DNA of 64,000 bases from Microbacterium sp. YJN-G. Its GTDB lineage: Bacteria > Actinomycetota > Actinomycetes > Actinomycetales > Microbacteriaceae. The notes beneath the pieces were generated by a model that ran no database searches, was not told the DNA's origin, and was given only the letters and a program-made list of their open reading frames with translations. Numbering within the stretch: position 1 is the stretch's first letter; each line of letters starts with the position of its first letter. Below, piece by piece: positions 1,017-59,875 of this stretch. Location of the stretch: positions 2,170,001 through 2,234,000 of the forward strand of contig NZ_CP060402.1 in NCBI RefSeq assembly GCF_015040615.1, given 5' to 3'. Made by a program: the position numbers and the translations under genes.

Positions 1017-1874
1017 TCAGCCGGCCTTCTTCTTGCCGCCCGACTTCTTCCCGGACTCCTTCGCATCGGAGCCGCCGCCCTTGCGCGCAGCCTTCGTGCG
1101 CTCGACGCTGGCGCGCAGCGCCTCCATCAGGTCGATGACCTCGCCGCCTGCACCCTCACCCTCCTCGGCGAAGGTCTCGGCGACGTCGAAGGTCTCGCCG
1201 GCCTCGATCTTCGCCTCGATGAGCGTGCGCAGCTCCTTCTGGTACTCGTCGATGTACTCCTCGGGGTCGAAGTCGCTGGAGTAGCTCTCGACGAGCGACG
1301 CCGACAGCTCGAGCTCCTTGGCGCTGACCTTCACATCCTCGTCCAGCGCCGGGAAGGCGGCCTCGCGCACCTCGTCGGCCCACAGCAGCGTCTGCAGCAC
1401 GAGCACGTCTCCGCGCACCCGCAGGGCTGCCAGGCGCGTCTTCTGCCGCAGCGTGAACCGCACGATCGCCGTGCGGTCGGTCTGCTCGAGCGTCTTGCGC
1501 AGCAGCACGTACGCCTTGGGCGACTTCGAGTCGGGTTCGAGGTAGTACGGCCGGTCGAGGGTGAGCAGGTCGATCTGGTCGCTCGGCACGAACTCGACCA
1601 CGTCGATCTCACGGCTCTTCTCCGCCGGCAGCGCCGCGAGATCGTCCTTGGTGAGCACGACGGTCTGCCCGTCGTCGTCGACGTACGCCCGGTCGATGTC
1701 GGCATAGGCGACGGTCTGGCCGCACACCTCGCAGGTGCGCTGGTACCGGATGCGGCCGCCGTCCTCGTCGTGCACCTGGTGCAGCGAGACGTCGTGGTCC
1801 TCGGTGGCCGAATACACCTTGACCGGCACGTTCACCAGGCCGAAGGTCACGGCGCCCTTCCAGATGCTCCTCAT
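1017..1874 (-). CDS. ku: Ku, non-homologous end-joining DNA-end-binding protein
   Basis: Bacterial Ku forms a homodimeric ring on double-strand DNA ends and recruits LigD. 285 aa: the Ku core begins with MRSIWKGAVTFGLVNVPVK and runs to about residue 250; the tail GKKSGGKKKAG is the lysine-rich extension of many actinobacterial Ku proteins, used for DNA binding and LigD stimulation. The ATG at 1874 is preferred over a GTG at 1895 because the conserved core starts there and a -10-like GATACT lies exactly 6 nt upstream. Divergent from ligD, which begins 67 bp away, so the two NHEJ genes share one short promoter region. Confidence 0.95.
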   Translation of the reverse strand: MRSIWKGAVTFGLVNVPVKVYSATEDHDVSLHQVHDEDGGRIRYQRTCEVCGQTVAYADIDRAYVDDDGQTVVLTKDDLAALPAEKSREIDVVEFVPSDQIDLLTLDRPYYLEPDSKSPKAYVLLRKTLEQTDRTAIVRFTLRQKTRLAALRVRGDVLVLQTLLWADEVREAAFPALDEDVKVSAKELELSASLVESYSSDFDPEEYIDEYQKELRTLIEAKIEAGETFDVAETFAEEGEGAGGEVIDLMEALRASVERTKAARKGGGSDAKESGKKSGGKKKAG

Positions 1875-1880
1875 CACACC

Positions 1881-1886
1881 AGTATC
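1881..1886 (-). promoter_or_regulatory. Putative leaderless -10 box of ku
   Basis: GATACT on the minus strand, 6 nt before the ATG at 1874. It departs from TAnnnT at the first base. Confidence 0.45.
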
Positions 1887-1929
1887 ACGAGCCACACCCC
1901 GTCGGGCCAGCCTCTTGACCCTCGCCGAC

Positions 1930-1935
1930 TAATCT
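1930..1935 (+). promoter_or_regulatory. Putative leaderless -10 box of ligD
   Basis: TAATCT followed by a 6-nt spacer and the ATG at 1942. This decides between that ATG and the in-frame GTG at 1936. Confidence 0.6.
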
Positions 1936-1941
1936 GTGTGC

Positions 1942-4434
1942 ATGGCAGCGAGCGGGCGGGTCGTGCAGGTCGACGGCCGTCGCCTGCGCGTCACGAACCT
2001 CGACAAGGTCGTCTACCCCGAGACCGGCACCACCAAGGGCGAGATCCTCGCCTACTACTCGCGCGTCGCCCCGGTGATGCTGCCGCATCTGCGGGGACGA
2101 CCGGTGACCCGCAAGCGCTGGGTGGACGGCGTCGGCACGGCAGAGCATCCCGCCGAGAGCTTCTTCACCAAGCAGCTCGAGCAGGGCGCCCCCGACTGGG
2201 TGCGACGGATGCCGATCGAGCACTCCGACGGCCCGAAGGACTATCCGCTCGCCGATGACGTCGCCACCCTGGTGTGGTTCGCGCAGATCGCCGCGCTCGA
2301 GCTGCACGTGCCGCAGTGGCGGTTCACGCATTTCGGCGGGCGGGGACGGCCAGACCGCCTGGTGCTCGACCTGGATCCAGGCCCCGGTGTGGGCTTGCCC
2401 GAGTGCGCGGAGATCGCGCGGGTCGCGCGCGGCATCCTGACCGGTATGGGACTGGAACCGCTGCCGGTGACCAGCGGCAGCAAGGGTATCCATCTGTACG
2501 CGAGGCTGCCCACCACCGATGACGGCACCGGGCGCCAGACCAGCGACGAGGTCTCGGCGGTCGCGAAGGAGCTGGCCCGGCTGATCGAGGCCGACCATCC
2601 CGACCTCGCCACGCACGTCATGGCCAAGTCCGCCCGCGGCGGCCGGGTGTTCATCGACTGGAGTCAGAACAGCGCCTCGAAGACGACGATCGCGCCGTAC
2701 TCGCTGCGCGGACGCGCCCGTCCGTGGGTCGCCGCCCCGCGCACCTGGGAGGAGCTCGACGACCCCGGCCTGCGGCATCTCGAGTTCGCCGAGGTGCTCG
2801 ACCGGGTGGACGCCGGGATCGATCCGTTCGCGGCGCTCGCGCCGCCCAGCCCGGCGCTTGCCGCCTACCTCGCCAAACGGGATGCCGCGAAGACCCCCGA
2901 ACCGATGCCGAGCACGGCATACGTCGGTTCGGGCGGGGCGCCGCGCTTCGTCATCCAGGAGCATCACGCCAGCCGCCTGCACTACGACCTGCGCATCGAG
3001 CGCGACGGGGTGCTGTTCAGCTGGGCGGTGCCCAAGGGCGTGCCCGAGACGACCGAGCGCAACCATCTCGCGGTGATGACGGAGCCGCATCCGATGGAGT
3101 ACCTCACGTTCGAGGGTGAGATCCCGCGCGGCGAGTACGGCGCGGGTTCGATGACGGTGTGGGACACCGGCACCGTCGCGCTGGAGAAATGGCGCGATGA
3201 CGAGGTCATCGGCACCTTCACGGGACAACCGGGCGGGCGGCTGGGCGCGGCACGTCTCGCGCTGATCCGCACCGAGGGCGAGGGTGAGAAGTCGCAGTGG
3301 CTGCTGCACCGCATGAAGGATCCGGCCGCTCGCCCGGTTCCTGAGCGCCCTTCGTCTCGCCCGGTTCCTGAGCGCCCTTCGTCTCGCACGGTTCGGGAGC
3401 GCCCTTCGTCTCGCTCCGCTCCCTCAGGAGCCGAGGAGCACGAAAGCGCCGTGCCGCCACCGCGGATCGAGCCGATGCTCGCCGAGGCGGGCACGCCGGC
3501 GCTCGCCCGATCGCTGGGCCCCTCCCCCTGGGCCGAGGTCAAGTGGGACGGCATCCGCGCCATCGGCACCTGGCAGACCACAGCATCCGGCGGCCGGTTC
3601 ACGCTGCACACCCGCAACGGCAACGACGTCACCGCCCGGTACCCCGAGCTCACCGCCGACGGCGCTCCGCACCTGCCCGCGACCGGAGCCGTCGTCGACG
3701 GCGAGATCGTCGCCTTCGACGCGCAGGGGCGGCCGAGCTTCGCGCGGCTGCAGCAGCGCATGCACCTCACTCGCGGGCGCGACATCGAGCGTGAGGTGGT
3801 GCGTACCCCGATCGTCTACCTGCTCTTCGACCTGCTGCACCTCGACGGCCACGACCTCACCCGCGTGCCGCTGCGCGAGCGTCGCGAGCTGCTCGAGCAG
3901 CTCGCCGCCGGCCTCGACGCGCCGGTGCAGGTGCCGCCGGTGTTCGAGGATCTGGATGCCGCTCTGGAGCTGAGCCGGCAGCACGGGCTCGAGGGCGTCG
4001 TCGCCAAGGACCCCCGCTCGTCATACCGTCCCGGTCGTCGCTCGTCGTCCTGGCTGAAGCTGAAGAACACGCGCACGCAGGAGGTCGTGATCGTCGGCAT
4101 CCGGCCCGGTCAGGGCAACCGGCGCGAGGGCATCGGCTCGCTGCTGCTCGCCGTGCCCGGTGACGACGGCGCACTCGCCTACGTCGGGCGCGTCGGCACC
4201 GGATTCAGCGATCGGATGCTGCGCGACCTGGCCGAACAGCTCGAACCGCTGCGGACGATGAAACCCGCGCTGGAGGTACCGCCCCCCGACGCTTCCGACG
4301 CGCTGTGGGTGCGTCCGGAACTGGTGGGCGAGGTCGAGTTCGCGAACTGGTCGCCCGGCGGCATCCTGCGGCATTCCCGCTGGCGCGGACTGCGCCCCGA
4401 CAAGTCCCCCGGCGACGTGCGCCGCGAGCCCTGA
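1942..4434 (+). CDS. ligD: LigD, multifunctional NHEJ ligase (POL-PE-LIG)
   Basis: ATP-dependent DNA ligase D of bacterial NHEJ, partner of Ku. 830 aa in the order polymerase (about 10-300, metal-binding D143 and D145 in LDLDPGPGVG), 3'-phosphoesterase (about 325-455, HHASRLHYD at 341-349), then ligase (about 505-825, nucleotidyl-accepting K534 in EVKWDGIR, OB fold at the end). This is the mycobacterial domain order. The linker between phosphoesterase and ligase (464-500) holds three in-frame nonapeptide repeats and looks like a repeat insertion. All catalytic motifs are present. A -10-like TAATCT 6 nt before the ATG points to a leaderless transcript. Confidence 0.96.
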   Translation: MAASGRVVQVDGRRLRVTNLDKVVYPETGTTKGEILAYYSRVAPVMLPHLRGRPVTRKRWVDGVGTAEHPAESFFTKQLEQGAPDWVRRMPIEHSDGPKDYPLADDVATLVWFAQIAALELHVPQWRFTHFGGRGRPDRLVLDLDPGPGVGLPECAEIARVARGILTGMGLEPLPVTSGSKGIHLYARLPTTDDGTGRQTSDEVSAVAKELARLIEADHPDLATHVMAKSARGGRVFIDWSQNSASKTTIAPYSLRGRARPWVAAPRTWEELDDPGLRHLEFAEVLDRVDAGIDPFAALAPPSPALAAYLAKRDAAKTPEPMPSTAYVGSGGAPRFVIQEHHASRLHYDLRIERDGVLFSWAVPKGVPETTERNHLAVMTEPHPMEYLTFEGEIPRGEYGAGSMTVWDTGTVALEKWRDDEVIGTFTGQPGGRLGAARLALIRTEGEGEKSQWLLHRMKDPAARPVPERPSSRPVPERPSSRTVRERPSSRSAPSGAEEHESAVPPPRIEPMLAEAGTPALARSLGPSPWAEVKWDGIRAIGTWQTTASGGRFTLHTRNGNDVTARYPELTADGAPHLPATGAVVDGEIVAFDAQGRPSFARLQQRMHLTRGRDIEREVVRTPIVYLLFDLLHLDGHDLTRVPLRERRELLEQLAAGLDAPVQVPPVFEDLDAALELSRQHGLEGVVAKDPRSSYRPGRRSSSWLKLKNTRTQEVVIVGIRPGQGNRREGIGSLLLAVPGDDGALAYVGRVGTGFSDRMLRDLAEQLEPLRTMKPALEVPPPDASDALWVRPELVGEVEFANWSPGGILRHSRWRGLRPDKSPGDVRREP
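3334..3414 (+). repeat. Three 27-bp in-frame tandem repeats in the ligD linker
   Basis: Units 3334-3360, 3361-3387 and 3388-3414 encode PVPERPSSR, PVPERPSSR and TVRERPSSR. The DNA carries CCTGAG and CCCTTCG blocks like those of the dispersed intergenic repeat of this window, so it may come from a related element. It lies between two folded domains, where extra length is tolerated. Confidence 0.85.
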
Positions 4435-4435
4435 G

Positions 4436-4572
4436 CCTGCCTGGGCCCCTGAGCCCGTCGAAGGGCCTGGGTCCCTGAGCGGGGCCCACGCGGCCAGAGG
4501 CTCCGCGCAGCGCGGAGCGGTGCGTGGAGGGGCCGTGGGGAGCGAAGGGCCTGGCCTGTCGAAGGGGCCAGA
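4436..4572. repeat. REP-like repeats in the ligD / cation-efflux gap
   Basis: Copies of the dispersed element (core CCTGAGCCYGTCGAAGGGCC) fill much of the gap at about 4446-4480, with a diverged copy at 4547-4570. The gap is convergent and non-coding. Confidence 0.75.
4500..4518. terminator. GC hairpin between convergent genes
   Basis: Perfect 8-bp stem GCTCCGCG / CGCGGAGC with a 3-nt CAG loop and no T-run. It could end transcription from ligD and from the cation-efflux gene, or be part of the repeat cluster around it. Confidence 0.4.
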
Positions 4573-4576
4573 GACG

Positions 4577-5497
4577 TCAGGCGTGCGCGGCCTCGCAGTC
4601 GTCGTGATCCGCGGGCTCGAGCTGGAAGGTCGAGTGCTCGACGTCGAAGTGCTCGGCCAGGCACGACTGCAGCTCCTGCAGCAGCTGAGACGAGCGCCCT
4701 GCGGCCAGCGCCGCCGGATCGACCTTGACGTGCGCGGTGAACACCGGCGCGCCGCGGGTCAGCTGCCACACGTGCACGTCATGCACGTCGACGACTCCGG
4801 GATACACCTTCAGGTGCTCACGGATCTCGCTGACGGCCATGCCCTTGGGGGCCGACTCGGCGAGCACCGAGAAGACCTCGCGCAGCAGGGAGACCGCCCG
4901 CGGCAGGATCATCACCGCGATCAGCAGCGAGGCGATCGCGTCGGCGGGCATCCATCCCGTGGTCACGATCACGATCGCGGCGATGATCACCATGACCGAG
5001 CCGATGAGGTCGCCCATCACCTCGAGGTAGGCGCCCCGCACGTTGATGCTGGTCTTCTGCGCGCGGCTGAGCACCCACATCGAGACCGCGTTGGCGATCA
5101 TGCCGACCACTGCGACGACGAGCATGAGGGGACCCGCGACCTCGACCTCGCCCGGATCGACCAGCCGCTGGATGCCCTGCACCGCCACGACGACCATGAG
5201 CACGATGAGGATGATCGCGTTGATCAGCGCCCCGAAGACCTCGGCCCGCTGGTAGCCGAAGGTGCGTCGATCGTCGGCCGGGCGTGCGGCGACCGCCGTG
5301 GCGATCAGGGCGACGACCAGCGCCGACGAGTCGGTGAACATGTGCGCGGCGTCGGCGAGCAGCGCAAGCGAGCCGGAGAGAATCGCGCCGATGACCTGCA
5401 CCACCATGACGGTGGCGGTCAGGCTCAGCGAGATCGTCAGCAGGCGCCGGTGGCCGGCGTCGCGGAGTCCCCCGGGGGCGGGTGCGTGATCGTGCAT
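4577..5497 (-). CDS. Cation diffusion facilitator (CzcD/ZitB type)
   Basis: Proton-coupled exporter of divalent metal (Zn, Co, Cd or similar). 306 aa, six membrane segments and a C-terminal cytoplasmic dimerisation domain (about 215-300). The transport site is H52xxxD56 in TM2 (HMFTD) and E159xxxD163 in TM5 (EVMGD). Most zinc transporters of the family have His where E159 stands, so metal preference may differ. His-containing ends (MHDHAP; DHDDCEAAHA) could bind metal. The start ATG has both a GGAGG and a TAGCCT box 6 nt upstream, so this is its own transcription unit. No metal regulator lies beside it. Confidence 0.92.
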   Translation of the reverse strand: MHDHAPAPGGLRDAGHRRLLTISLSLTATVMVVQVIGAILSGSLALLADAAHMFTDSSALVVALIATAVAARPADDRRTFGYQRAEVFGALINAIILIVLMVVVAVQGIQRLVDPGEVEVAGPLMLVVAVVGMIANAVSMWVLSRAQKTSINVRGAYLEVMGDLIGSVMVIIAAIVIVTTGWMPADAIASLLIAVMILPRAVSLLREVFSVLAESAPKGMAVSEIREHLKVYPGVVDVHDVHVWQLTRGAPVFTAHVKVDPAALAAGRSSQLLQELQSCLAEHFDVEHSTFQLEPADHDDCEAAHA

Positions 5498-5503
5498 GCC
5501 TCC

Positions 5504-5509
5504 AGGCTA
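5504..5509 (-). promoter_or_regulatory. Putative -10 box of the cation-efflux gene
   Basis: TAGCCT on the minus strand with a 6-nt spacer (GGAGGC) to the ATG at 5497. Confidence 0.55.
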
Positions 5510-5593
5510 GGCCGATGTCCCGGCCCCGAAGGCCCGTGTCCCGCAGTCGGGAACGGTAACGGTTCTCAACATCGCGGGTGAGGCGATCGGATG

Positions 5594-6945: not shown

Positions 6946-6965
6946 GGGGTCCTCTCGGGTGGGGT

Positions 6966-7877: not shown

Positions 7878-7888
7878 GATGCTCAAGC

Positions 7889-10413: not shown

Positions 10414-10419
10414 TACACT
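10414..10419 (+). promoter_or_regulatory. Putative leaderless -10 box of pncB
   Basis: TACACT followed by 6 nt and the ATG at 10426. Confidence 0.55.
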
Positions 10420-12103: not shown

Positions 12104-12109
12104 ATTCTA
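12104..12109 (-). promoter_or_regulatory. Putative leaderless -10 box of the DUF3039 gene
   Basis: TAGAAT on the minus strand, 6 nt before the ATG at 12097. Confidence 0.6.
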
Positions 12110-13752: not shown

Positions 13753-15668
13753 TCCAGCCCCTCCACTTCTCCGCCGGTGCCGGACAGCTCGACGAATCGC
13801 GCTGCCAGGGTCTGGCCTGCCCGCACCTCGTCGATGGTCCCCTCGGCGAGCACCTCGCCGCCGACGATGACCGCGACGCGCGAGCACACCCGCTCGACCA
13901 GGTCCATGCCGTGGCTGGAGAGGATCACCGTGCCGCCGTGCGCGACGTACGAGCGCAGGATGTCGAGGATCACCCCGGATGAGACCGGGTCGACCGCCTC
14001 GAACGGCTCGTCGAGCACGAGCACCCGCGGGGAATGGATCAGTGCGCCGGCGAGCATGACCTTCTTGGTCATGCCGGCCGAGTAGTCCGACACGACGCGG
14101 CTGAGTGCCTCGGTGAGGTCGAAGGCGCGCGCGAGGTCGGCGACGCGCTTCTCGATCACGGCGCGGTCCAGGCGCCGCAGCTGCCCGTAGTAGTGCAGCA
14201 GCTGCCGCCCGGTGAGCCGGTCGAAGGTGCGCAGCCGGTCGGGCAGCACGCCCATGACGCGCTTGGCGCCCAGCGGATCGGCGCGCTGGTCGATGCCGGC
14301 GATGTGCACGGTGCCCTCATCGGGGCGCAGCAGGCCGGCGATGATCGACAGCGTCGTGGTCTTGCCGGCTCCGTTCGGGCCGACCAACCCGTAGAACGTG
14401 CCGGCGGGGACCGTGAGGTCGATGCCGTCGACGGCATGGGTCTCGCCGAAGCGCTTGACGAGCCCGCGGATGCGGATCGCGTCGGTGCGCGGCGCGGAAT
14501 CCTCGTCCGTCGCCTCCGGCGCGGGGACGCCGGATACGGCGTCGTCGAGTGCGGTGGCGTCCGCGGATGCGGTGTCGTCGGATGCTGTGGCATCCAGAGC
14601 CGTTTCGTCGATCGCGATGTCGGCCCGTGCAGCGTCAACGGGTGCGGCTTCCTCCGCGGCAGCCTCGTACGGCGCCGTCGTCGTGATCGCGGCATCCGCT
14701 TCCGCCTCTGCGGACGTCGCGTCCTCTCCAGCCGTCTCGGCGACCGCCGGTTTCCCGGCGACATCCTGCGCAGGCTCGGCTGCGGCCGGGCCTGTCTCGG
14801 CAGCGGCATCCGGGACGACAGGCGGAGCGGCTGCCGCCCTGGCGGCAGATCCGCGTGGAGGACGCGCCTCGGTCGGCGTCGCGGCGCTGTTCGACGCCGC
14901 CGTCAGCCGACGCGCGGGAGCCGTCGATTCATCGGTCACGGATTGAACATCGAGCTGCTGGACCGGGGCGATCGACGATGCATCCACGGCATCCGTCGTG
15001 CTGGCTGCTGCCGTCTCAGCGGGGGCGGGCTTCGTCGTGCGCTTCGCGGGGGTCTTCCGGGCGGGCGCGGGTTCCGGCGAGGTCGTCTTCGCGGCAGTGG
15101 TCCGCTTCGCCGGCGTCTTCCTGGCCTGTGCGGACTTCTCACCGGATGCCGTCGCGGGCGTGGCCGTCTTCTTGGCCGCCGCGGTCGACTTCGCTGAGGT
15201 GGTCGACTTCGCTGAGGCGGATGACTTCGCGGACGCGGATGAATTCGCGGCCGAGGCGGTCCTCTTCGTCGCAGTGGCCGTCTTGTCCGCGTCGGCGCTC
15301 TTGGCGTCGGCCTTCACTGCGGTGGATGCGGCCGCGGCCTTCTTCACCGCCGCCGTCTTCGCCGCGCTGGTCGTGGCGGTGCGCTTAGCGGCGGCGGTCT
15401 TCGACTCGCTCGCTGCGGACGCGGCCTTCTTGGCCGCGGCGGTCTTCGCCGCCGTCGACTTCGCGGCAGCCGACTTTGCGGCGGGTGACTTCGCGGCGGG
15501 TGACTTCGCGGTCGCCGGCTTCGCGGCGGGCGACTTCGCAGGAGACTTCTTCGCCGCAGGCTTCTTCGCAGCCGGAGCCTTCTGGGTTTCAGGCGCCTTG
15601 ACGGCATCCGCATACTCGTTCTGAGTGTTCTCGATGCGGTCGTCTCCAGAGGCGAGATCAGCAGTCAC
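13728..15668 (-). CDS. ABC transporter ATPase with H1-like basic and acidic N-terminal extension
   Basis: ATP-binding subunit of an ABC-2 exporter with an unusual 390-residue extension. 646 aa. Residues 24-215 are a low-complexity Ala/Lys/Pro/Ser/Thr segment of AAK, SPAAK and TPAKR units, like histone H1 tails; 216-392 are Ala/Glu/Asp/Thr-rich and acidic; 396-615 are a standard ABC domain with Walker A GPNGAGKT (430-437), signature YSAGM (529-533), Walker B VLVLDEPF (549-556) and H586. The GTG start at 15668 has TACCGT 6 nt upstream, which supports the full-length form. The ATPase alone would be about 250 aa. The permease overlaps its 3' end. Confidence 0.85.
   Translation of the reverse strand: MTADLASGDDRIENTQNEYADAVKAPETQKAPAAKKPAAKKSPAKSPAAKPATAKSPAAKSPAAKSAAAKSTAAKTAAAKKAASAASESKTAAAKRTATTSAAKTAAVKKAAAASTAVKADAKSADADKTATATKRTASAANSSASAKSSASAKSTTSAKSTAAAKKTATPATASGEKSAQARKTPAKRTTAAKTTSPEPAPARKTPAKRTTKPAPAETAAASTTDAVDASSIAPVQQLDVQSVTDESTAPARRLTAASNSAATPTEARPPRGSAARAAAAPPVVPDAAAETGPAAAEPAQDVAGKPAVAETAGEDATSAEAEADAAITTTAPYEAAAEEAAPVDAARADIAIDETALDATASDDTASADATALDDAVSGVPAPEATDEDSAPRTDAIRIRGLVKRFGETHAVDGIDLTVPAGTFYGLVGPNGAGKTTTLSIIAGLLRPDEGTVHIAGIDQRADPLGAKRVMGVLPDRLRTFDRLTGRQLLHYYGQLRRLDRAVIEKRVADLARAFDLTEALSRVVSDYSAGMTKKVMLAGALIHSPRVLVLDEPFEAVDPVSSGVILDILRSYVAHGGTVILSSHGMDLVERVCSRVAVIVGGEVLAEGTIDEVRAGQTLAARFVELSGTGGEVEGLEWLHTFSD
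15024..15599 (-). repeat. Low-complexity Ala/Lys coding repeats (H1-like tail)
   Basis: Codons 24-215 of the ABC ATPase are degenerate repeats of GCC/GCG and AAG codons in 9-15-bp units, densest at 15460-15560. They keep one open frame with G or C at third positions, as expected for selected coding sequence. Confidence 0.8.
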
Positions 15669-15674: not shown

Positions 15675-15680
15675 ACGGTA
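15675..15680 (-). promoter_or_regulatory. Putative leaderless -10 box of the ABC ATPase
   Basis: TACCGT on the minus strand, 6 nt before the GTG at 15668. Confidence 0.55.
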
Positions 15681-16717: not shown

Positions 16718-16723
16718 TAGGAT
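16718..16723 (+). promoter_or_regulatory. Putative leaderless -10 box of the gene at 16730
   Basis: TAGGAT followed by 6 nt and the ATG at 16730. Confidence 0.6.
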
Positions 16724-17716: not shown

Positions 17717-17794
17717 GGGCGACTTCTCCACAGCATCCGCCGTCGAGGTCGCTGCAGGCCCGTCCGCGTCGGCGCACGTCCTCAGCATGGTGGG

Positions 17795-18196: not shown

Positions 18197-18202
18197 TACC
18201 GT
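18197..18202 (+). promoter_or_regulatory. Putative leaderless -10 box of the lipoprotein gene
   Basis: TACCGT followed by 6 nt and the GTG at 18209. Confidence 0.55.
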
Positions 18203-20066: not shown

Positions 20067-20072
20067 TAGGGT
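20067..20072 (+). promoter_or_regulatory. Putative leaderless -10 box of accD
   Basis: TAGGGT followed by 7 nt and the GTG at 20080. Confidence 0.6.
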
Positions 20073-25124: not shown

Positions 25125-25130
25125 AGCCTA
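25125..25130 (-). promoter_or_regulatory. Putative leaderless -10 box of the response regulator operon
   Basis: TAGGCT on the minus strand, 6 nt before the ATG at 25118. Confidence 0.65.
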
Positions 25131-25149: not shown

Positions 25150-26358
25150 TCAGCGCGTGAGCAGCGCGACGGCCTCGAGGTGGTGCGAATGCGGGAACAG
25201 ATCGAAGGCTCGCAGGGATGCCGTCTGCCAGCCCAGCTCGCGGAACGTGCCGAGATCACGTGCCAGGGCGACGGGATCGCACGCCACGTACACGACGGCC
25301 TCGGGTTCGAGCGCGTGGATGGACTCCACGACCCCGCGTCCCGCACCCGACCGCGGCGGGTCGAGCACGACAGCGCCCGCCCTGGTGCCGTCGGGGAGCC
25401 CGGAGAGGAACCGGTCGACCCGCGCGGTCACCGCCTGCGCGTCCAGATCCGCGAGGTTCTCCGCGGCGTACGCGGTCGCACGGCGGTCCGACTCGACCGT
25501 GACGATGTCGGTCGCGCCCTGCTCACCGAGCGTGGCCGCGAACAGGCCGACACCGCCGTAGAGGTCGAAGTGCGTGGCGTCCTCGTCGACGCGGCCCGCG
25601 AGCGCCTCGGCGACCGCCTGCTGCAAGGTCTCGGCCGCGCGCGGGTGCACCTGCCAGAAGCCACCGGCGTCGACCTGGAATCGCCGGCCGCCTGCCCGCT
25701 CGAACACGGTCTCCTGCTTGCCGCGGCGGGCGCCCTCCGGTCGGGGCAGCACGCGTACCCGGCCATCGCCCGGCTCGACGAGGTCCACCCGGCCCGGCTT
25801 CTGCGCACGCAGCGCGAAGGCGGCCTCCGCCACCCCCGGACGCGCCAGCGGCAGCGTGGCGACGTCGATGACGCGGTGACTACGCGCGGCATACGGCCCG
25901 ACGCGGCCGTCGGCGTCCACGTGCAGCGAGACCCTCGTGCGCCATCCGGTGCCGTCGCCCTCGTCGACCGCGGTGACCTCCGGGGCCGTCAGGCCCGGCC
26001 CCGCGAACTTGTCCAGCGCCTCCTGCAGCACCCGGCGCTTCAGCATCCGCTGCTCTCCCAGTTCGATGTGGCCGAGGTCGGCACCGCCGACCCGGTCCTC
26101 CGGGGCGCGCGAGACGTCGGCCTCGGCCCACACGTGCGGGCGACGGTGCGGCGACGCCTCGAGCACCTCGAGCGTCTCGGCACGCCAGAAGCTGCGCTTG
26201 TCAGCACGCTCATCAGGGTCGGTGATGCGCACCCGCACGCGCTCACCCGGGATCGCGTCGGGGACGAAGACGACCCGCCCCTCGTGGCGGGCGATGAAGG
26301 TGCCGCCGTGGGCGATGCCGGTGATGTCGAGGTCGAGCGTGGGCTGCCGGGAGGTCAT
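25150..26358 (-). CDS. RNA m5U methyltransferase (TrmA/RlmC/RlmD family), cluster-free
   Basis: SAM-dependent methyltransferase of RNA uridines. 402 aa: N-terminal TRAM domain (about 1-60), central domain, and Rossmann methyltransferase domain with FDLYGGVGLFA (SAM loop), DPPRSGAGRG, and nucleophile C360 in VYVACDPVALARD. The Fe-S cluster cysteines of E. coli RlmD are absent: its CGGCxxQ-like region here reads VGGADLGHI. It is therefore a cluster-free version; whether tRNA or 23S rRNA is the target cannot be told. Start from ATG 26358, where TSRQPTLDLDITGIAHGG opens the TRAM domain; GATCCT lies 6 nt upstream. Divergent from maf. Confidence 0.9.
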   Translation of the reverse strand: MTSRQPTLDLDITGIAHGGTFIARHEGRVVFVPDAIPGERVRVRITDPDERADKRSFWRAETLEVLEASPHRRPHVWAEADVSRAPEDRVGGADLGHIELGEQRMLKRRVLQEALDKFAGPGLTAPEVTAVDEGDGTGWRTRVSLHVDADGRVGPYAARSHRVIDVATLPLARPGVAEAAFALRAQKPGRVDLVEPGDGRVRVLPRPEGARRGKQETVFERAGGRRFQVDAGGFWQVHPRAAETLQQAVAEALAGRVDEDATHFDLYGGVGLFAATLGEQGATDIVTVESDRRATAYAAENLADLDAQAVTARVDRFLSGLPDGTRAGAVVLDPPRSGAGRGVVESIHALEPEAVVYVACDPVALARDLGTFRELGWQTASLRAFDLFPHSHHLEAVALLTR

Positions 26359-26364
26359 CGTTCC

Positions 26365-26370
26365 AGGATC
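26365..26370 (-). promoter_or_regulatory. Possible leaderless -10 box of the m5U methyltransferase
   Basis: GATCCT on the minus strand, 6 nt before the ATG at 26358; first base off consensus. Confidence 0.4.
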
Positions 26371-26380
26371 CCACACCGGA

Positions 26381-26386
26381 TAGCGT
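26381..26386 (+). promoter_or_regulatory. Putative leaderless -10 box of maf
   Basis: TAGCGT followed by 6 nt and the ATG at 26393. Confidence 0.55.
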
Positions 26387-26392
26387 GGGTTC

Positions 26393-27040
26393 ATGCGCGT
26401 CTGCCTGGCCTCCACCTCCCCCGCCCGCCTCATGCTGCTGCGGCAGGCGGGCATCGAGCCGCTGACGCTGGCTCCCGAGGTCGACGAGGATGCCGTCGCC
26501 GCGGCCGCGGAGGCCGAGCGCGGCGCACCGCTGCCGCCGGACGAGCTCGTGCTGCTGCTGGCACGCGCCAAGGCCGCCGATGTCGCCCGGCGGCTGCCCG
26601 AGCGGCATCCGGACTTCGACGGGATCGTCATCGGCGGTGACTCGATGTTCGAACTGGACGGGCGGGTGCATGGCAAGCCGTACACGGCCGAGGTCGCCCG
26701 CGAGCGCTGGGAGCGGATGCGGGGAACCACCGGCGTGCTGCACTCGGGCCACTCGGTCTTCCGGGTGCGCCCGGATGCCGCAGCCACCGAGGCGACCGCG
26801 GTCGCGGAGGCGCGCGTCACCTTCGCTGCGGACATCAGCGATGCCGAGCTGGACGCGTACATCGCCAGCGGCGAACCGCTGCTCGTCGCCGGCGCCTTCA
26901 CCGTCGACAGCCTGGGCGGGGCGTTCATCACCCGCGTGGAGGGCGACCCGTCGACGGTGGTCGGCATGTCACTGTCGACCCTGCGCACCCTCGCCGCCGA
27001 GCTCGGCGTCACCTGGACCGATCTGTGGACGTCTCCCTGA
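26393..27040 (+). CDS. maf: Maf family nucleotide pyrophosphatase
   Basis: Hydrolyses nucleoside triphosphates, typically dTTP/UTP or modified pyrimidines, and is linked to septum control in some bacteria. 215 aa. The signature VCLASTSPARLMLLRQAGI opens the protein; conserved Asp/Lys positions appear in VIGGDSM and HGKP, and VEGDPSTVVGMSL is typical near the end. GGDSM replaces the commoner ADT. It stands between accE and accA in the order known for mycobacteria, here with its own leaderless promoter. Confidence 0.93.
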   Translation: MRVCLASTSPARLMLLRQAGIEPLTLAPEVDEDAVAAAAEAERGAPLPPDELVLLLARAKAADVARRLPERHPDFDGIVIGGDSMFELDGRVHGKPYTAEVARERWERMRGTTGVLHSGHSVFRVRPDAAATEATAVAEARVTFAADISDAELDAYIASGEPLLVAGAFTVDSLGGAFITRVEGDPSTVVGMSLSTLRTLAAELGVTWTDLWTSP

Positions 27041-27139: not shown

Positions 27140-27145
27140 TAGGCT
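27140..27145 (+). promoter_or_regulatory. Putative leaderless -10 box of accA
   Basis: TAGGCT followed by 7 nt and the ATG at 27153. Confidence 0.65.
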
Positions 27146-30493: not shown

Positions 30494-30499
30494 TAGAGT
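30494..30499 (+). promoter_or_regulatory. Putative leaderless -10 box of deoD
   Basis: TAGAGT followed by 6 nt and the ATG at 30506. Confidence 0.6.
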
Positions 30500-40960: not shown

Positions 40961-40962
40961 GG

Positions 40963-46698: not shown

Positions 46699-49501
<2,803 letters not shown>

Positions 49502-49554
49502 GTGTCGATCCTATTCATCGCGGGTGACGTCGCCCAGACTGCGCCGGGCAGACG

Positions 49555-50854: not shown

Positions 50855-51965
50855 AGAGCACGTCGCCCCTGCCGGTGAGCTTGAGCGATTCGACGACGCC
50901 CTTCACGCGCTGGGCGTGCTCGACCGTCGTCACCAGCAGCGCGTCCTCGGTGTCGACCACGACGATGTCCTGCACGCCGACCAGGCTGATCACGCGGGAG
51001 GTCTGGCTGACGAGGATGCCGCTGGCGGCGTCCGAGAGCACGCGCGCGTTCGGCCCGAGCACCGCGAGGTCGTTCTTGCGTCCGTGGGTGATGAGCTTGG
51101 TGAGCGAGGCGAAGTCGCCCACGTCGTCCCAGTCGAAGTGCCCGGGGATCACGGCCAGCCTCCCCCGCGCGGCGGCGGGCTCGGCGACCGCGTAGTCGAT
51201 CGCGACCTTCTTCAGGTTCGGCCAGATGCGGTCCACGGCCGGGCCCCGCAGGTCGCGGTCGTCCCAGGCCTCGGCGAGTTCGAGCAGCCCCGCGTGCAGC
51301 TCGGGCTCGTTCGCCGCCAGCTCGTCGAGCAGCACGCTCGCCTTGGCGATGAACATGCCGGCGTTCCAGAGGTAGTCGCGATCCGCGAGGTACTCGCGTG
51401 CGGTCTCGAGGTCGGGCTTTTCGACGAAGCGCTCGACGAGCGTCGCCTCAGGCGCCCCTTCGACCACCAGCTCGCCCGCGCGCTTGATGTAGCCGAAGCC
51501 GACCGAGGGCTCGGTCGGCGGGATGCCGATCGTGACGATATAGTCCTGCCGCGCCACCTGCACCGCCTGCTGCACGGCCCATTCGAACACCTGCGTGCCG
51601 CGGATGACATGGTCGGCGCTGAACGAGCCGATGATGACGTCAGGGTCGCGACGGTGCAGCACGGCCGCGGCCAGGCCGATCGCCGCGGCCGACTCGCGCG
51701 GCTCGGACTCCAGGAAGACATTGGCATCCGTGATGCCGGGCAGCTGCCCCTCGACGGCGGCGCGATGCGCGCGGCCGGTGACGACGGCGATCCGGTCGGC
51801 CCCGGTCAGCGGCTCGAGGCGATCCCAGGTGTCGCGCAGCAGCGAGTGGCCGGAGCCGGTCAGGTCGTGCAGGAACTTCGGCGCGTCCGCGCGCGAGAGC
51901 GGCCAGAGCCTGCTGCCGATGCCGCCGGCCGGGATCACTGCGTAGAAGTCGTCGATTCGCCCCAT
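50853..51965 (-). CDS. manC: Mannose-1-phosphate guanylyltransferase
   Basis: Makes GDP-mannose from mannose-1-phosphate and GTP, for glycolipids, glycans or protein mannosylation. 370 aa. N-terminal AVIPAGGIGSRLWPLSRADAPKF is the nucleotide-binding signature, FSADHVIRG and FVEKPDLETA are conserved sugar-nucleotide contacts, and GHFDWDDVGDF is the family's metal-site region. No C-terminal isomerase fusion. Start ATG 51965 has TAGGTT 7 nt upstream. Divergent from sdhCDAB. Mannose-1-phosphate could come from the pmmB product. Confidence 0.93.
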   Translation of the reverse strand: MGRIDDFYAVIPAGGIGSRLWPLSRADAPKFLHDLTGSGHSLLRDTWDRLEPLTGADRIAVVTGRAHRAAVEGQLPGITDANVFLESEPRESAAAIGLAAAVLHRRDPDVIIGSFSADHVIRGTQVFEWAVQQAVQVARQDYIVTIGIPPTEPSVGFGYIKRAGELVVEGAPEATLVERFVEKPDLETAREYLADRDYLWNAGMFIAKASVLLDELAANEPELHAGLLELAEAWDDRDLRGPAVDRIWPNLKKVAIDYAVAEPAAARGRLAVIPGHFDWDDVGDFASLTKLITHGRKNDLAVLGPNARVLSDAASGILVSQTSRVISLVGVQDIVVVDTEDALLVTTVEHAQRVKGVVESLKLTGRGDVL

Positions 51966-51972
51966 GCGCTCC

Positions 51973-51978
51973 AACCTA
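51973..51978 (-). promoter_or_regulatory. Putative leaderless -10 box of manC
   Basis: TAGGTT on the minus strand, 7 nt before the ATG at 51965. Confidence 0.55.
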
Positions 51979-52054: not shown

Positions 52055-52116
52055 GGATGAGGTCGGGCGTGCCCGGATGCACGGACCTGACGACGCATAG
52101 GAGCAGGGAGGACGAC

Positions 52117-52994: not shown

Positions 52995-53007
52995 ACAAAG
53001 AAGGCAG

Positions 53008-54819: not shown

Positions 54820-54821
54820 GC

Positions 54822-55580: not shown

Positions 55581-55598
55581 CCCCTCTGCGGTCTTCAC

Positions 55599-55631
55599 GC
55601 GCGCCCGGCTGACGAGTTCAGCCGGGCGCGC
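55599..55631 (+). terminator. Terminator of sdhCDAB
   Basis: 14-bp perfect stem GCGCGCCCGGCTGA / TCAGCCGGGCGCGC with a 5-nt loop, 18 nt after the sdhB stop. Confidence 0.75.
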
Positions 55632-55668
55632 AGCCGTTCGTGCGGACGGCGATGTCCGTGCCCGTCGT

Positions 55669-55674
55669 TAGGCT
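55669..55674 (+). promoter_or_regulatory. Putative leaderless -10 box of xthA
   Basis: TAGGCT followed by 6 nt and the ATG at 55681. Confidence 0.65.
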
Positions 55675-55680
55675 GGAATC

Positions 55681-56526
55681 ATGCCTCACCTGCGTATCGC
55701 CTCGGTCAATGTCAACGGGATCCGCGCGGCGGTCCGCAACGGGATGCACACCTGGCTGGATGCCGCGGACGTCGACATCCTCACCCTGCAGGAGGTCCGT
55801 GGCCAGGACGAGCACCTCGAGGATGCATTCCCCGGCTGGTCGATGCTGCACGACCCCGCCACGGCCAAGGGCCGTGCGGGTGTCGCGGTGCTGAGCAGGA
55901 ATCCCGCCGTCTCCTCCCGCACGGCGCTGGGCGCGGATGACTTCGACTCGGCCGGGCGCTGGCTGGAGGCTGATTTCGAGATCGGTGGACGGCCGCTCAC
56001 GGTCGTCAGCGCGTACGTGCACAGCGGGGAGGCCGACACCCCCAAGCAGGACGAGAAGTGGAAGTTCCTGGACGCGATGACCACGCGCCTGGGCGAGCTG
56101 GCCGCCGATGACGCACTCGCGCTCGTCACCGGCGACCTCAATGTCGGTCACCGTGAACTCGACATCCGCAACTGGCGCGGCAACCGCAAGAAGGCGGGGT
56201 TCCTGCCCCGCGAGCGCGCCTACTTCGACCGCTTCCTGGGGGCGGCGGGCACCTCGATCGCGGGCGTCGACGGCACCACCGGCCCCGGCCTCGGCTGGAT
56301 CGACATCGGCCGCACGGCCCACGGCGAGGTCGACGGCCCGTACACGTGGTGGTCCATGCGCGGACAGGCATTCGACAACGACAGCGGCTGGCGCATCGAC
56401 TACCACCTGGCGACCCCCGCCCTCGCTGCCCGCGCCACCGGCTACACCGTCGCCCGTGCCGCCAGCTACTCCGAGCGGTGGAGCGACCACGCCCCGGTGA
56501 TCGTCGACTACACGTACGAACAATAG
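55681..56526 (+). CDS. xthA: Exodeoxyribonuclease III / AP endonuclease
   Basis: Base-excision repair enzyme: AP endonuclease and 3'-5' exonuclease on duplex DNA. 281 aa of the EEP fold: RIASVNVNGIRAA (first metal contact), TLQEVRGQDEH with catalytic Glu, TGDLNVGHRELDIRN with Asp/Asn, and C-terminal RIDYHLATP and ERWSDHAPVIVDY with the catalytic His. Leaderless-type promoter; trpS begins 9 nt after its stop with its own -10 box. Confidence 0.95.
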   Translation: MPHLRIASVNVNGIRAAVRNGMHTWLDAADVDILTLQEVRGQDEHLEDAFPGWSMLHDPATAKGRAGVAVLSRNPAVSSRTALGADDFDSAGRWLEADFEIGGRPLTVVSAYVHSGEADTPKQDEKWKFLDAMTTRLGELAADDALALVTGDLNVGHRELDIRNWRGNRKKAGFLPRERAYFDRFLGAAGTSIAGVDGTTGPGLGWIDIGRTAHGEVDGPYTWWSMRGQAFDNDSGWRIDYHLATPALAARATGYTVARAASYSERWSDHAPVIVDYTYEQ

Positions 56527-56529
56527 GAT
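56524..56529 (+). promoter_or_regulatory. Putative leaderless -10 box of trpS
   Basis: TAGGAT overlapping the xthA stop codon, followed by 6 nt and the GTG at 56536. Confidence 0.6.
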
Positions 56530-56535
56530 TGAACG

Positions 56536-57543
56536 GTGACTCAGAAACCACGCCTCTACTCAGGAATGCAGCCCTCCGCCGACTCCCTCCAGGCCGGCAA
56601 CTACATCGGGGCGCTCCTGCAGTGGCGTGACATGCAGTCCTCCTTCGACGCCTTCTTCTCGGTGGTCGACCTGCACGCGATCACCGTGCCGCAGAAGCCC
56701 GACGAGCTGCGCGAGAAGACCCGCCGCACGGCCGCGCAGTACATCGCCGCCGGCATCGAGCCGTCGAAGTCGACCCTGTACGTGCAGTCGCACGTGCGCG
56801 CGCACGCCGAGCTCGCCTGGATCCTCAGCACCATCACCGGCTTCGGCGAGGCCGGCCGGATGACGCAGTTCAAGGACAAGTCGGCCCGGTACGGTCAGGA
56901 CTCCACCTCGGTGGGCCTGTTCACCTACCCGGTGCTCATGGCGGCCGACATCCTGCTGTACCAGAGCGAGCTCGTGCCGGTCGGCGACGATCAGAAGCAG
57001 CATGTCGAGCTGACCCGCGACCTCGCGGAGCGCTTCAACAAGCGTTTCGGCGAGGCCTTCACGATCCCCCAGCCGGTGATCCAGAAGGACACCGCGCGCA
57101 TCTACGACCTGCAGAACCCGACCGCGAAGATGTCGAAGTCGGCCGAGAGCGACGCGGGTGTGCTGTGGCTGCTGGATGACCCGGCCAAGTCGGCGAAGAA
57201 GATCATGCGGGCGGTGACCGACACCGAGGGTTCGGTGCGTTACGACCGCGAGAACAAGCCGGGCGTCTCGAACCTGCTGACCATCTACGCCGCCCTCACC
57301 GGCCGCCAGATCGGCGCCATCGAGGACGAGTACGCGGGCCGCGGCTACGGCGACTTCAAGAAGGGCCTGGCCGAGGTGGTCGTGGAAGAGTTCGGGCCGG
57401 TCCGCGAGCGCGCGAACGCGCTGCTCGACGACCCGGCAGAGCTCGACCGGCTGCTCGCCGTGAACGCGGCCAAGGCCGACGAGGTGGCGGACGCCACTCT
57501 GGCGGACGTCTACGACCGCGTCGGCCTGCTGCGTCGCGTCTGA
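56536..57543 (+). CDS. trpS: Tryptophanyl-tRNA synthetase
   Basis: Charges tRNA-Trp. 335 aa class Ic synthetase, very like the E. coli enzyme: [19 protein letters not shown] stands at the HIGH motif position (QAGN), [13 protein letters not shown] and [12 protein letters not shown] are diagnostic, and AKMSKS is the second signature. GTG start with a TAGGAT box 6 nt before it, so it can be expressed independently of xthA. Confidence 0.97.
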
Positions 57544-57575
57544 CCGCCCGTGCGCCCCGTCCTGAGGAGGATGCC

Positions 57576-58193
57576 GTGACCGATCAGCCGTTCCCCGCTC
57601 CGGGAGGCGCGGCGCCGGGAAACCCCGCGTCGGGAAACCCTGCACCCGGTGGTCCTGCGACCGGAAGGCCTGCGTACGGAAGTCCCGCGCCCGCCGGTTC
57701 CGTACCGGTGCCGCCGGCGCCCGCTCCGCCGCCCGGATCGTACGCCGTTCCCGTCGGCGGCTACCCGGCGGCGATGGGCGCATACCAGGTGCCTTCCGCC
57801 GCCCCGGCGTCATCGAAGCGGACGGGGGCGTTCGCCCTGATCGCATCCCTGCTCGCCGCTGTCGTCGCACCGATCATCGCCGGCATCCTCGCCGTGCGGA
57901 TCGGCACCCAGGTGCTGATCACCGACGTCGTGAGCATCTCCGGTGAGATCGTCTACGCGGCACTGTCGCCGGTGCGCACCGAGGTGCTGTGGGTGGAGAT
58001 CGTGTTCTGGGTCGCGACGATCCTCGGCATCCTGGCACTCGTGCTCGGCATCGTCGCGATCGCGCGGCGCCGGGGCCGCGGCATGGGCATCGCGGCGGTC
58101 GTCCTGGCCGTCGTCGGCCCCGGTGGCTTCTTCCTCGCCGTCTCGCTGCTGTACGGGCTCGGCAACGGCATCGGCTTCGCCGGCTCGTTCTGA
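57576..58193 (+). CDS. Membrane protein with Pro/Gly/Ala-rich N-terminus
   Basis: 205 aa, function unknown. Residues 1-80 are a Pro/Gly/Ala/Ser domain of imperfect GNPASGNPAPGGPA units, followed by three or four hydrophobic segments (AFALIASLLAAVVAPIIAGIL; IVFWVATILGILALVLGIVAI; GIAAVVLAVVGPGGFFLAVSLLY; the longest run here is hydrophobic throughout). The layout matches the many actinobacterial small DUF4190-like membrane proteins, an inference by architecture. GTG start with GAGGAGG 6 nt upstream. Follows trpS by 32 nt and may be co-transcribed. Confidence 0.75.
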   Translation: MTDQPFPAPGGAAPGNPASGNPAPGGPATGRPAYGSPAPAGSVPVPPAPAPPPGSYAVPVGGYPAAMGAYQVPSAAPASSKRTGAFALIASLLAAVVAPIIAGILAVRIGTQVLITDVVSISGEIVYAALSPVRTEVLWVEIVFWVATILGILALVLGIVAIARRRGRGMGIAAVVLAVVGPGGFFLAVSLLYGLGNGIGFAGSF

Positions 58194-58212
58194 GCGCGTC
58201 ACCGATTCTGAG

Positions 58213-58239
58213 CGCGTGAGCCGCTGAGCGGCTCACGCG
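58213..58239. terminator. Bidirectional terminator between convergent genes
   Basis: 12-bp perfect stem CGCGTGAGCCGC / GCGGCTCACGCG with a TGA loop, between the membrane protein and pth. Confidence 0.75.
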
Positions 58240-58245
58240 TCCCGG

Positions 58246-58827
58246 TCAGCTGCGGGAGTGGTGCTTCTGCTGGGCCGCGACCAGTCCCTCGTCGACGAGC
58301 TGCTCGACCGCGTCCGCGGCATCCGAGATGAAGATCGGCAGCGTCTTCTGCTCGCTGCCGCCGAACGGTGCGAGCACCCAGTCCGCGGGGTCCTGGCGCC
58401 CCGGCGGCCGGCCGATGCCGGCGCGCACGCGGGGGAACTCGGGGGTCGCGAGGGCGCGCGCGATGTCGCGCACGCCGTTGTGACCGCCGTGACCGCCGCC
58501 GATCTTGAGCCGGATGCTGTCGAAGGGGATATCGAGCTCATCGTGCACGACCACGACGCGCTCAGGGTCGACCGAGTAGAAGCGCGCGAGGGCGGCGACA
58601 GGCGTGCCCGACACGTTCATGTAGGTGTTGAGCTTGGCGAGCACCAGCTTGTCGCCGCCGGGCCGCAGCCAGGTCTCGACGACGCGCGCACCGGCCTTAT
58701 GCTCGCGGAACCGCTCGCTGCGCCGCTCGGCCAGCTCGTCGACGACCATCTGGCCGATGTTGTGCCTGGTCGCGGCGTAGCGCGGGCCGGGGTTGCCGAG
58801 GCCGACGATGAGCCAGGTGGACGCCAT
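58246..58827 (-). CDS. pth: Peptidyl-tRNA hydrolase
   Basis: Releases tRNA from abortive peptidyl-tRNAs, essential for tRNA recycling. 193 aa. WLIVGLGNPGPRYAATRHNIG holds catalytic His near 22 and Asn contacts; LAKLNTYMNVSG and VVHDELDIPF are signature segments, GGGHGGHNGVRDI the tRNA-binding loop. Downstream of rplY, a pairing frequent in bacteria, but a terminator between them makes it at least partly independent. Confidence 0.96.
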   Translation of the reverse strand: MASTWLIVGLGNPGPRYAATRHNIGQMVVDELAERRSERFREHKAGARVVETWLRPGGDKLVLAKLNTYMNVSGTPVAALARFYSVDPERVVVVHDELDIPFDSIRLKIGGGHGGHNGVRDIARALATPEFPRVRAGIGRPPGRQDPADWVLAPFGGSEQKTLPIFISDAADAVEQLVDEGLVAAQQKHHSRS

Positions 58828-58896
58828 GCGGTGATCCTCTCACGGGATGCGGACGGTGCTGCGGGCGGGTGCCGGCCGTGGTGCCGGCGGGGATGA

Positions 58897-58929
58897 AGAA
58901 GGGGACGCGATGTGCTCGCGTCCCCTTCT
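58897..58929 (-). terminator. Terminator of rplY
   Basis: 14-bp perfect stem AGAAGGGGACGCGA / TCGCGTCCCCTTCT with a 5-nt loop, 17 nt after the rplY stop. Confidence 0.8.
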
Positions 58930-58945
58930 CCGAATCCTCAGCAGA

Positions 58946-59563
58946 TCACTCTGCGGCGGCTTCCTCGGCAGCCGGAGCGGCCTCGGCTGCAGGAGCCTCC
59001 TCGGCGCTCTCCTCGGCGACCTCGGCGGCCGGCAGCGAGACGGCGACGAGCAGCAGCTCGGCGTCGTCGACCAGCGCGGCACCCTTGGGCAGCGTGACGT
59101 CACCGGCGGTGATGTGCGAGCCCTCCTCGAGGCCCTCGACGGAGACCTCGACGTGCTCGGGGATGTGGGTCGCCTCGACCTCGAGCTTGATGGTCGCGAC
59201 GTCGACGGTCACGATGGTGCCCGAGAACGACTCGCCCGAGACGACGATCGGCACCTCGACGATGACCTTCTCGCCCTTCTTCACGACGAGCAGGTCGATG
59301 TGCTCGATGATCTGGCGCACCGGGTCCTTCTGCACGTCCTTGACCAGGACGAGCTGCGACTTGCCGTCGAGCTGCAGGTCGATGACGGCGTTGGCGCGGC
59401 GGATGATCAGCGAGACCTGGTGGCCGGGCAGCGCGACGTGCACCGGGTCGGTGCCGTGGCCGTAGATGACCGCGGGGATCTTGCCCTCGGCGCGCAGGCG
59501 GCGGGCGAAGCCCTTGCCGAAGCTGGTGCGGACGTCGGCGACGACCTTGTTCTCATCGGACAT
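58946..59563 (-). CDS. rplY: Ribosomal protein bL25, CTC form
   Basis: 5S rRNA-binding ribosomal protein with the extra C-terminal TL5/CTC domain. 205 aa: L25 domain about 5-95 (VRTSFGKGFARRLRAEGKIPAVIYG), beta domain about 100-185 (VEVPIVVSGES, LPKGAALVDD), then an acidic Ala/Glu tail. AAGGAGAAC ribosome site before the ATG. Likely -10 box TAGCAT lies about 150 nt upstream near 59718, implying a long leader. Confidence 0.95.
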   Translation of the reverse strand: MSDENKVVADVRTSFGKGFARRLRAEGKIPAVIYGHGTDPVHVALPGHQVSLIIRRANAVIDLQLDGKSQLVLVKDVQKDPVRQIIEHIDLLVVKKGEKVIVEVPIVVSGESFSGTIVTVDVATIKLEVEATHIPEHVEVSVEGLEEGSHITAGDVTLPKGAALVDDAELLLVAVSLPAAEVAEESAEEAPAAEAAPAAEEAAAE

Positions 59564-59737
59564 GTTGTTCTCCTTCAGACGCGCGGGATGGGCCGCGCGG
59601 TGGTCATGGGTTTCGGCACCCTCGGACGCACACGAGAGGCGAGACCACCGGGCTCACATCACCGCGTCGATCACGGATGAGCGCACGCGCGCGTCATCCC
59701 TCGCCGAGGAACGTCTCCATGCTACCGGAAACCTCGA

Positions 59738-59743
59738 TAGGCT
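59738..59743 (+). promoter_or_regulatory. Putative leaderless -10 box of the 41-residue ORF
   Basis: TAGGCT followed by 6 nt and the ATG at 59750. Confidence 0.6.
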
Positions 59744-59749
59744 GTTTGC

Positions 59750-59875
59750 ATGATCGATGCCGCCTTCCTCTCCCACGTCACCTTCTGGGTCATCGGCGCG
59801 ATCGCCGTCTGCGGCGTGGTCTCGTCGTTCGCGGCGATGTTCGCGATGGGTCGCTCGAGCTACCGCAAGGACTGA
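59750..59875 (+). CDS. Small single-span membrane protein
   Basis: 41 aa, not matched to a known family. One hydrophobic helix of about 20 residues (FWVIGAIAVCGVVSSF within residues 12-31) followed by a positive tail MGRSSYRKD, giving a predicted N-out or N-in single-span protein. The evidence for a real gene is the consensus TAGGCT box 6 nt before the ATG, the clean hydrophobic pattern and high G/C third positions. It lies alone between rplY (divergent) and idnD (convergent). Confidence 0.6.
   Translation: MIDAAFLSHVTFWVIGAIAVCGVVSSFAAMFAMGRSSYRKD

Follow-up and report, generated by a model that had tools for sequence, protein, structure and literature searches.

The window analysed here, a 64,000-nt stretch of the 3.62-Mb genome of Microbacterium sp. 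YJN-G, carries a series of genes whose ATG or GTG start codon is preceded at a short and nearly constant distance by the hexamer TAnnnT (Table 1). In what follows, the gap is the number of nucleotides between the last T of this box and the start codon. The first-pass annotation had named sixteen such genes, with a gap of 6 nt (7 for accD, accA and manC), and all sixteen sites were found as described, as were the one-base GAnnnT variants before ku and the m5U methyltransferase gene. A scan of both strands for TAnnnT placed 6 or 7 nt before ATG or GTG gave 18 matches, namely the sixteen, an overlooked seventeenth before the gene of an ABC transporter ATPase at 49501 (-), and one at 56513 (-) that lies antisense within xthA and looks like a chance match. 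Thirteen of the 16 genes have a Pfam family that agrees with their name: ligD, cation efflux, pncB, DUF3039, ABC ATPase, accD (carboxyltransferase), response regulator, Maf, deoD (purine nucleoside phosphorylase family), manC (ManC-type nucleotidyltransferase), xthA (exonuclease/endonuclease family), trpS (class I W/Y tRNA synthetase) and accA, where the match is to the biotin carboxylase chain. For 16730, 18209 and the 41-aa ORF no Pfam family was found.

Table 1. Boxes directly upstream of start codons in the window. Orthologues: those with TAnnnT at gap 6 or 7 relative to an in-frame start that lies no more than 10 codons from the aligned one.
Feature	Position	Strand	Gap and start codon	Gene	Pfam	Orthologues with box	Remark
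Variant -10 box GATACT	1881..1886	-	6 nt, ATG 1874	ku	Ku domain		
-10 box TAATCT	1930..1935	+	6 nt, ATG 1942	ligD	yes		
-10 box TAGCCT	5504..5509	-	6 nt, ATG 5497	cation efflux	yes	5/5	
-10 box TACACT	10414..10419	+	6 nt, ATG 10426	pncB	yes	14/14	
-10 box TAGAAT	12104..12109	-	6 nt, ATG 12097	DUF3039	yes	15/15	
-10 box TACCGT	15675..15680	-	6 nt, GTG 15668	ABC ATPase	yes		
-10 box TAGGAT	16718..16723	+	6 nt, ATG 16730	16730		17/17	
Variant -10 box CAGCAT	17783..17788	+	6 nt, ATG 17795	101-aa ORF			TAnnnT in relatives
-10 box TACCGT	18197..18202	+	6 nt, GTG 18209	18209		1/1	
-10 box TAGGGT	20067..20072	+	7 nt, GTG 20080	accD	yes	77/80	C at -1
-10 box TAGGCT	25125..25130	-	6 nt, ATG 25118	response regulator	yes	66/68	
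Variant -10 box GATCCT	26365..26370	-	6 nt, ATG 26358	m5U methyltransferase			divergent from maf
-10 box TAGCGT	26381..26386	+	6 nt, ATG 26393	maf	yes	55/65	
-10 box TAGGCT	27140..27145	+	7 nt, ATG 27153	accA	yes	60/64	C at -1
-10 box TAGAGT	30494..30499	+	6 nt, ATG 30506	deoD	yes	43/43	
-10 box TAGGAT	49508..49513	-	6 nt, ATG 49501	ABC transporter ATPase	yes		absent from earlier list
-10 box TAGGTT	51973..51978	-	7 nt, ATG 51965	manC	yes		C at -1
-10 box TAGGCT	55669..55674	+	6 nt, ATG 55681	xthA	yes	17/17	
-10 box TAGGAT	56524..56529	+	6 nt, GTG 56536	trpS	yes	21/29	
-10 box TAGGCT	59738..59743	+	6 nt, ATG 59750	41-aa ORF			

Gene starts were called with a codon-usage model that is blind to promoters. 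Based on these starts, the box stands at gap 6 in 10 of 58 genes of the window and at gap 7 in one, while gaps 0-5 and 8-10 have none. As the first-pass annotation had estimated, chance matches are rare: in the first 400-kb sample the density of TAnnnT is 0.00072 per strand position, which predicts about 0.1 gene with the box at gap 6 or 7 for the 59 genes called. At 6 of the 17 sites (1942, 12097, 20080, 26393, 51965 and 56536) the motif-blind caller had another start or missed the gene; for ligD it chose 1963 instead of the box-linked ATG at 1942, and for manC the TTG at 51974 instead of the ATG at 51965. Orthologues back four of these six re-assigned starts, and for the other two, ligD and manC, no orthologue was found in the loci examined.

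The conservation of the boxes was assessed in 80 loci around accD and in 29 relatives' loci around trpS. For xthA and trpS, Table 1 gives relatives alone, one fewer each than a count that also takes in this genome. The accD identity to the 80 best loci is 83-96%, and nearly all of these are titled Microbacterium or another genus of the Microbacteriaceae, with a few vaguer titles and one that reads Planococcus. Left out were tblastn matches beginning after residue 15 (12 of 54 for the control gene 30441, 0-1 for most tested genes, all 29 of 29 for the ABC ATPase at 15668) and matches with under 45 or 80 nt upstream. As Table 1 shows, the same distance is kept in the orthologues while the middle bases of the box vary, and the gap of 7 nt before accD recurs in 69 of the 77 orthologues with a box; these counts come mostly from one genus, and the genomes are not independent. 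The same procedure at 15 other gap pairs (10-39) gave means of 0 to 2.6 matches per gene set; the largest single values (maf 25, 16730 16, trpS 15, response regulator 14) are probably the same box viewed from a second start codon. Eight of twelve control genes had orthologues, and six of these eight had no box in any of them. The remaining two are 21666, with a box in 6 of 69 orthologues, and 17795, which has CAGCAT in the window and TAnnnT at 6 or 7 nt in 9 of 9 relatives. No match to ligD, manC or the 41-aa ORF was found in the accD and trpS loci, and the box was present in 0 of 27 tblastn matches to the ABC transporter ATPase at 49501, which may be paralogues. Outside the family, 0 of 8 trpS orthologues carry TAnnnT. 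By eye, several orthologues counted as lacking TAnnnT have CAnnnT, GAnnnT or AAnnnT 6-7 nt before an in-frame ATG, both for trpS (L123, L124, L125, L129, L130) and for maf (L023, L025, L046, L080, L091).

The first-pass annotation had proposed comparing gene starts across the genome with shuffled upstream regions. In the part of the genome covered, 40 further 20-kb stretches, the peak at gaps 6 and 7 stands far above shuffles: TAnnnT is found at gap 6 in 71 and at gap 7 in 22 of 722 motif-blind starts, compared with a mean of 2.7 and a maximum of 11 for the remaining 58 gaps, and with means of 2.0 (gap 6) and 1.8 (gap 7) and maxima of 7 and 8 in 200 dinucleotide shuffles. The peak also appears in scans made without gene calls and with offset controls, and a count over the complete genome gives 356 for TANNNTN6ATG and 131 for the reversed pattern. 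When nearby in-frame starts were allowed, 155 of 812 genes qualified, with about 15 of the 155 expected as background (7.4 per gap); the box thus stands directly before the start codon of roughly one gene in six. Matches to a -35 element (at least 4 of 6 to TTGACA, at 16-18 bp) occur in 15 of the 155 genes versus 3-11 of 155 at four offsets, and an extended TGn -10 in 8 of the 155, which is little or no result.

The genes with a box differ from the others in several respects. Of the box genes, 8 of 155 have an SD-like 4-mer between -15 and -5, compared with 270 of 625 other genes; the earlier statement that genes with strong ribosome sites lack the box therefore holds as a trend and fails as an absolute rule. 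The companion statement on genes inside operons is borne out as a bias, with a same-strand neighbour at 10 nt or less in 7 of 155 box genes versus 184 of 625 others. The start codons of the 155 are 106 ATG, 49 GTG and 0 TTG, although TTG was permitted in the search; the absence of TTG is weak evidence, since only about 3 would be expected from its share of called starts (8 of 366). Box genes thus look like genes at the head of a transcription unit, each having its own promoter and lacking a ribosome site. In 6 of the 155, the TAG or TAA of the box is the stop codon of the upstream gene. In the window, the TAG of the trpS box doubles as the xthA stop codon, and five similar cases lie in the sampled stretches. 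This overlap was considered as a feature and rejected as incidental, since it recurs in 0 of 16 relatives with a box and a measurable xthA stop.

The box also exists in degenerate form. Of 779 starts, 23 have GAnnnT at gap 6, compared with 8.7 per other gap (maximum 18), and 17 have CAnnnT there, compared with 7.4 (maximum 15); the remaining seven one-base variants of TAnnnT showed no excess at the starts of this genome. For the m5U methyltransferase (2 of 70 rows left out), nAnnnT stands 6-7 nt before the start in 67 of 68 orthologues versus 2-20 of 68 at 16 other gap pairs, and the first base is T in 18, G in 29, C in 15 and A in 5. The A and the last T are therefore held in these orthologues, and the first T is soft. 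It is exactly the A and the last T of a -10 element that sigma region 2 flips out. The start codons of maf and the m5U methyltransferase gene (26358-26393) diverge from an interval of 34 bp that contains both boxes back to back and is too short for separate -35 elements between them.

The base directly before the start codon (-1) varies with both the gap and the start codon. At the gene-called sites with gap 6, it is C in 55, G in 11, T in 10 and A in 0 cases before ATG, and G in 22, C in 9, T in 3 and A in 1 before GTG. With gap 7, the counts are C 23, T 4, G 2 and A 1 before ATG, and C 9, T 2, G 2 and A 1 before GTG. Pyrimidines thus account for 77 of the 111 gap-6 sites and 38 of the 44 gap-7 sites, and the corresponding contrast for purines (34/111 vs 6/44, p 0.04) is weak in this sample. 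A raw scan of 864 kb of the same genome for gap 7 before ATG found G at -1 in 9 cases versus a background of 8.1, and C in 30 versus 4.7. The strong evidence comes from orthologue sequences and from a scan of the genus, two sources that overlap in lineage. Among 333 distinct orthologue sequences, a purine is found at -1 in 71 of 193 at gap 6 versus 4 of 140 at gap 7, where C is present in 130 of the 140. The trpS orthologues show the switch within a single gene, where all 15 gap-6 sequences have G and all 5 gap-7 sequences have C; those of 16730 show no contrast, having a purine at neither gap. The genus scan covered the first 60 of 119 listed Microbacterium genomes, with the excess taken over the reversed pattern. 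Per genome, this excess at gap 6 is 48.4 for purine and 165.4 for pyrimidine; at gap 7 the values are 2.9 and 79.7. Purines thus make up 22.6% of the excess at 6 nt and 3.5% at 7 nt, and their share is greater at gap 6 in 58 of the 60 genomes.

With a purine at -1 and a 7-nt gap, the leader would be a single base long; genes of this kind are nearly absent, as if even so short a leader were disfavoured in the genus. The contrast falls short of proof, since a general preference for C before a start site accounts for part of it. The 'exactly 6-7 nt' of the first-pass annotation stands as a spacing, and can be sharpened to 6 nt, or 7 nt with a pyrimidine at -1.

The start codon enters as well. At gap 6 in this genome, G precedes GTG in 22 of 35 cases versus 11 of 76 for ATG (Fisher 7e-7). 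The other genes of the sample are without this coupling (G at -1 in 143 of 392 ATG and 53 of 217 GTG starts). In four genomes from other families of the order, pooled, the counts are 13 of 25 versus 6 of 46 (Fisher 7e-4), with one of the four, G147, showing no coupling (1 of 4). In scans at gap 6, GGTG occurs 3912 times versus 3320 for the control (above control in 30 of 39 genomes) and CGTG 3265 times versus 3936 (above control in 11 of 39). Both differences go the expected way; the reversed control, however, suits words of this kind badly, and we rely on the gene-called and offset-controlled counts instead.

Each of the four genomes from other families (289 to 350 genes each) has a peak at gap 6, with 6 to 26 starts where the other gaps average 0.3 to 1.1, and an elevated count at gap 7 (3 to 6 starts); 6 to 12% of their genes qualify. 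Gap 8 is raised in two of them, G062 (5 vs 0.3 per gap) and G147 (6 vs 1.1). The purine contrast at -1 is weak in these genomes, with 21 of 71 starts at gap 6 versus 5 of 34 at gap 7, and for ATG alone 8 of 46 versus 2 of 20. In a survey of the phylum (119 genomes, this one included) the excess is not universal, G050 for example having 440 matches versus 524 for the control; no rate is drawn from the survey, whose reversed control is crude for AT-rich genomes.

The motif, its spacing and conservation, the rarity of SD-like sequences and the statistics at -1 are direct counts. We consider it highly probable, at about 0.93, that the boxes belong to housekeeping promoters of the sigma-A type, placed so that transcripts begin with the start codon itself and are leaderless. 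The first-pass annotation had already proposed -10 boxes with the start site on the start codon, and this is supported by the position, the rare SD sequences, the use of ATG and GTG only, the bias towards first genes of operons, the conservation and the pyrimidine at -1. From these sequence features we infer the sigma factor, the start-site positions and leaderless translation, including the missing leader. RNA polymerase would begin at the A or G of the start codon, and ribosomes would translate the message with no leader. The default start would be the seventh base after the last T of the -10 box, whose A and last T are its most firmly held bases. With a 6-nt gap, this seventh base is the A or G of ATG or GTG. 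With a 7-nt gap it is a pyrimidine, nearly always C, and the polymerase would step one base on, again to the start codon; a start codon at the eighth base would require the seventh to be a poor start, hence the C there. It is an even question whether selection on the -1 base fixes the 5' end to a single base, the 7-nt gap being used only with a 'skip' pyrimidine and the 6-nt gap preferring C before ATG and G before GTG, which would point to a start-codon-specific initiator rule.

The same boxes could be promoters with start sites slightly further upstream of the start codon, giving very short leaders of 1-5 nt. The base on which a polymerase starts can shift by one or two positions, and the excess at gap 8 in G062 and G147 fits such leaders. 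Within the genus, however, a 7-nt gap with a purine at -1 is hardly enriched, and C holds that position in nearly all distinct gap-7 orthologue sequences, which makes short leaders very unlikely. An artefact of start choice, in which picking among in-frame ATG and GTG codons creates the pattern, could draw on the 6 of 17 window sites that the motif-blind caller did not pick; since the peak persists with motif-blind starts and in offset-controlled scans without gene calls, we give this hardly any credence. Nor do we give appreciable weight to the TA signal acting as something other than a -10 box, such as a binding site for the ribosome or a regulator. No support for such a site was found in this analysis, and the box matches the -10 consensus reported for actinobacterial start sites, keeps its A and last T while the first base varies, and is nearly exclusive with SD sequences.

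Transcription from the first base of the start codon, the preferred reading, would place these genes in a known class. According to Zheng et al. (2011), TANNNT about 12 bp before the start codon marks leaderless genes in Actinobacteria; such genes were found in 86 of 89 actinobacterial genomes, made up around 20% of genes and were classed apart from SD-led genes (PMC3160421). The Microbacterium boxes differ in nothing in kind from these TA-led genes as described there. The word stems 'microbacteri' and 'leifsonia' are absent from the main text of that paper, and no dependence on the -1 base was found in its account of these genes. Leaderless transcripts with mapped 5' ends are known from M. 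tuberculosis (Cortes 2013, PMC3898074) and M. smegmatis (Shell 2015, PMC4633059), and a 5' ATG or GTG is given as necessary and sufficient. The mycobacterial promoters have a TANNNT -10 box, no conserved -35 element and a purine start with C as the commonest base at -1. The box and the C recur in the present genes, where a -35 element is barely detectable and the purine start is predicted from sequence, whereas start sites were measured in the mycobacteria. Shell et al. found RTG at +1 to be commoner than at +2 to +5 together (PMC4633059), with which the near-absence of one-base leaders here agrees. In C. glutamicum, where 5' ends were mapped, TAnnnT is present in about 97% of start sites and 33% are leaderless (PMC3890552). 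Leaderless starts in that species are only AUG (79%) and GUG (21%), compared with 106 of 155 ATG and 49 of 155 GTG here; the spacer is 3-11 nt for all its start sites, compared with 6-7 nt for the start-codon class here.

Leaderless architecture is therefore a known actinobacterial phenomenon, predicted in 2011, and not a discovery of this work. Among the matches listed for 'leaderless' with 'Microbacterium' in open-licence papers, none is by its title on leaderless mRNA of the genus, and no rule tying together spacing, -1 base and start codon was recognised in such papers from the title and the start of the abstract. What is added here is evolutionary evidence for a precision of nearly a single base, together with an unexplained coupling between the -1 base and the start codon. 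This extends a known gene architecture to Microbacterium and bears on how strictly the ribosome requires a start codon placed right at the 5' end. It also yields a simple rule for correcting start codons: the box is followed by 6 nt, with or without one further pyrimidine, and then by ATG or GTG. The 41-aa ORF at 59750-59875 of the window, called from coding potential, has this leaderless architecture. GG right after the box is found at 40 of 155 sites, compared with 111 of the 1144 TAnnnT hexamers in the sample as a whole; this is a discriminator preference, which can mimic an SD sequence too near the start codon.
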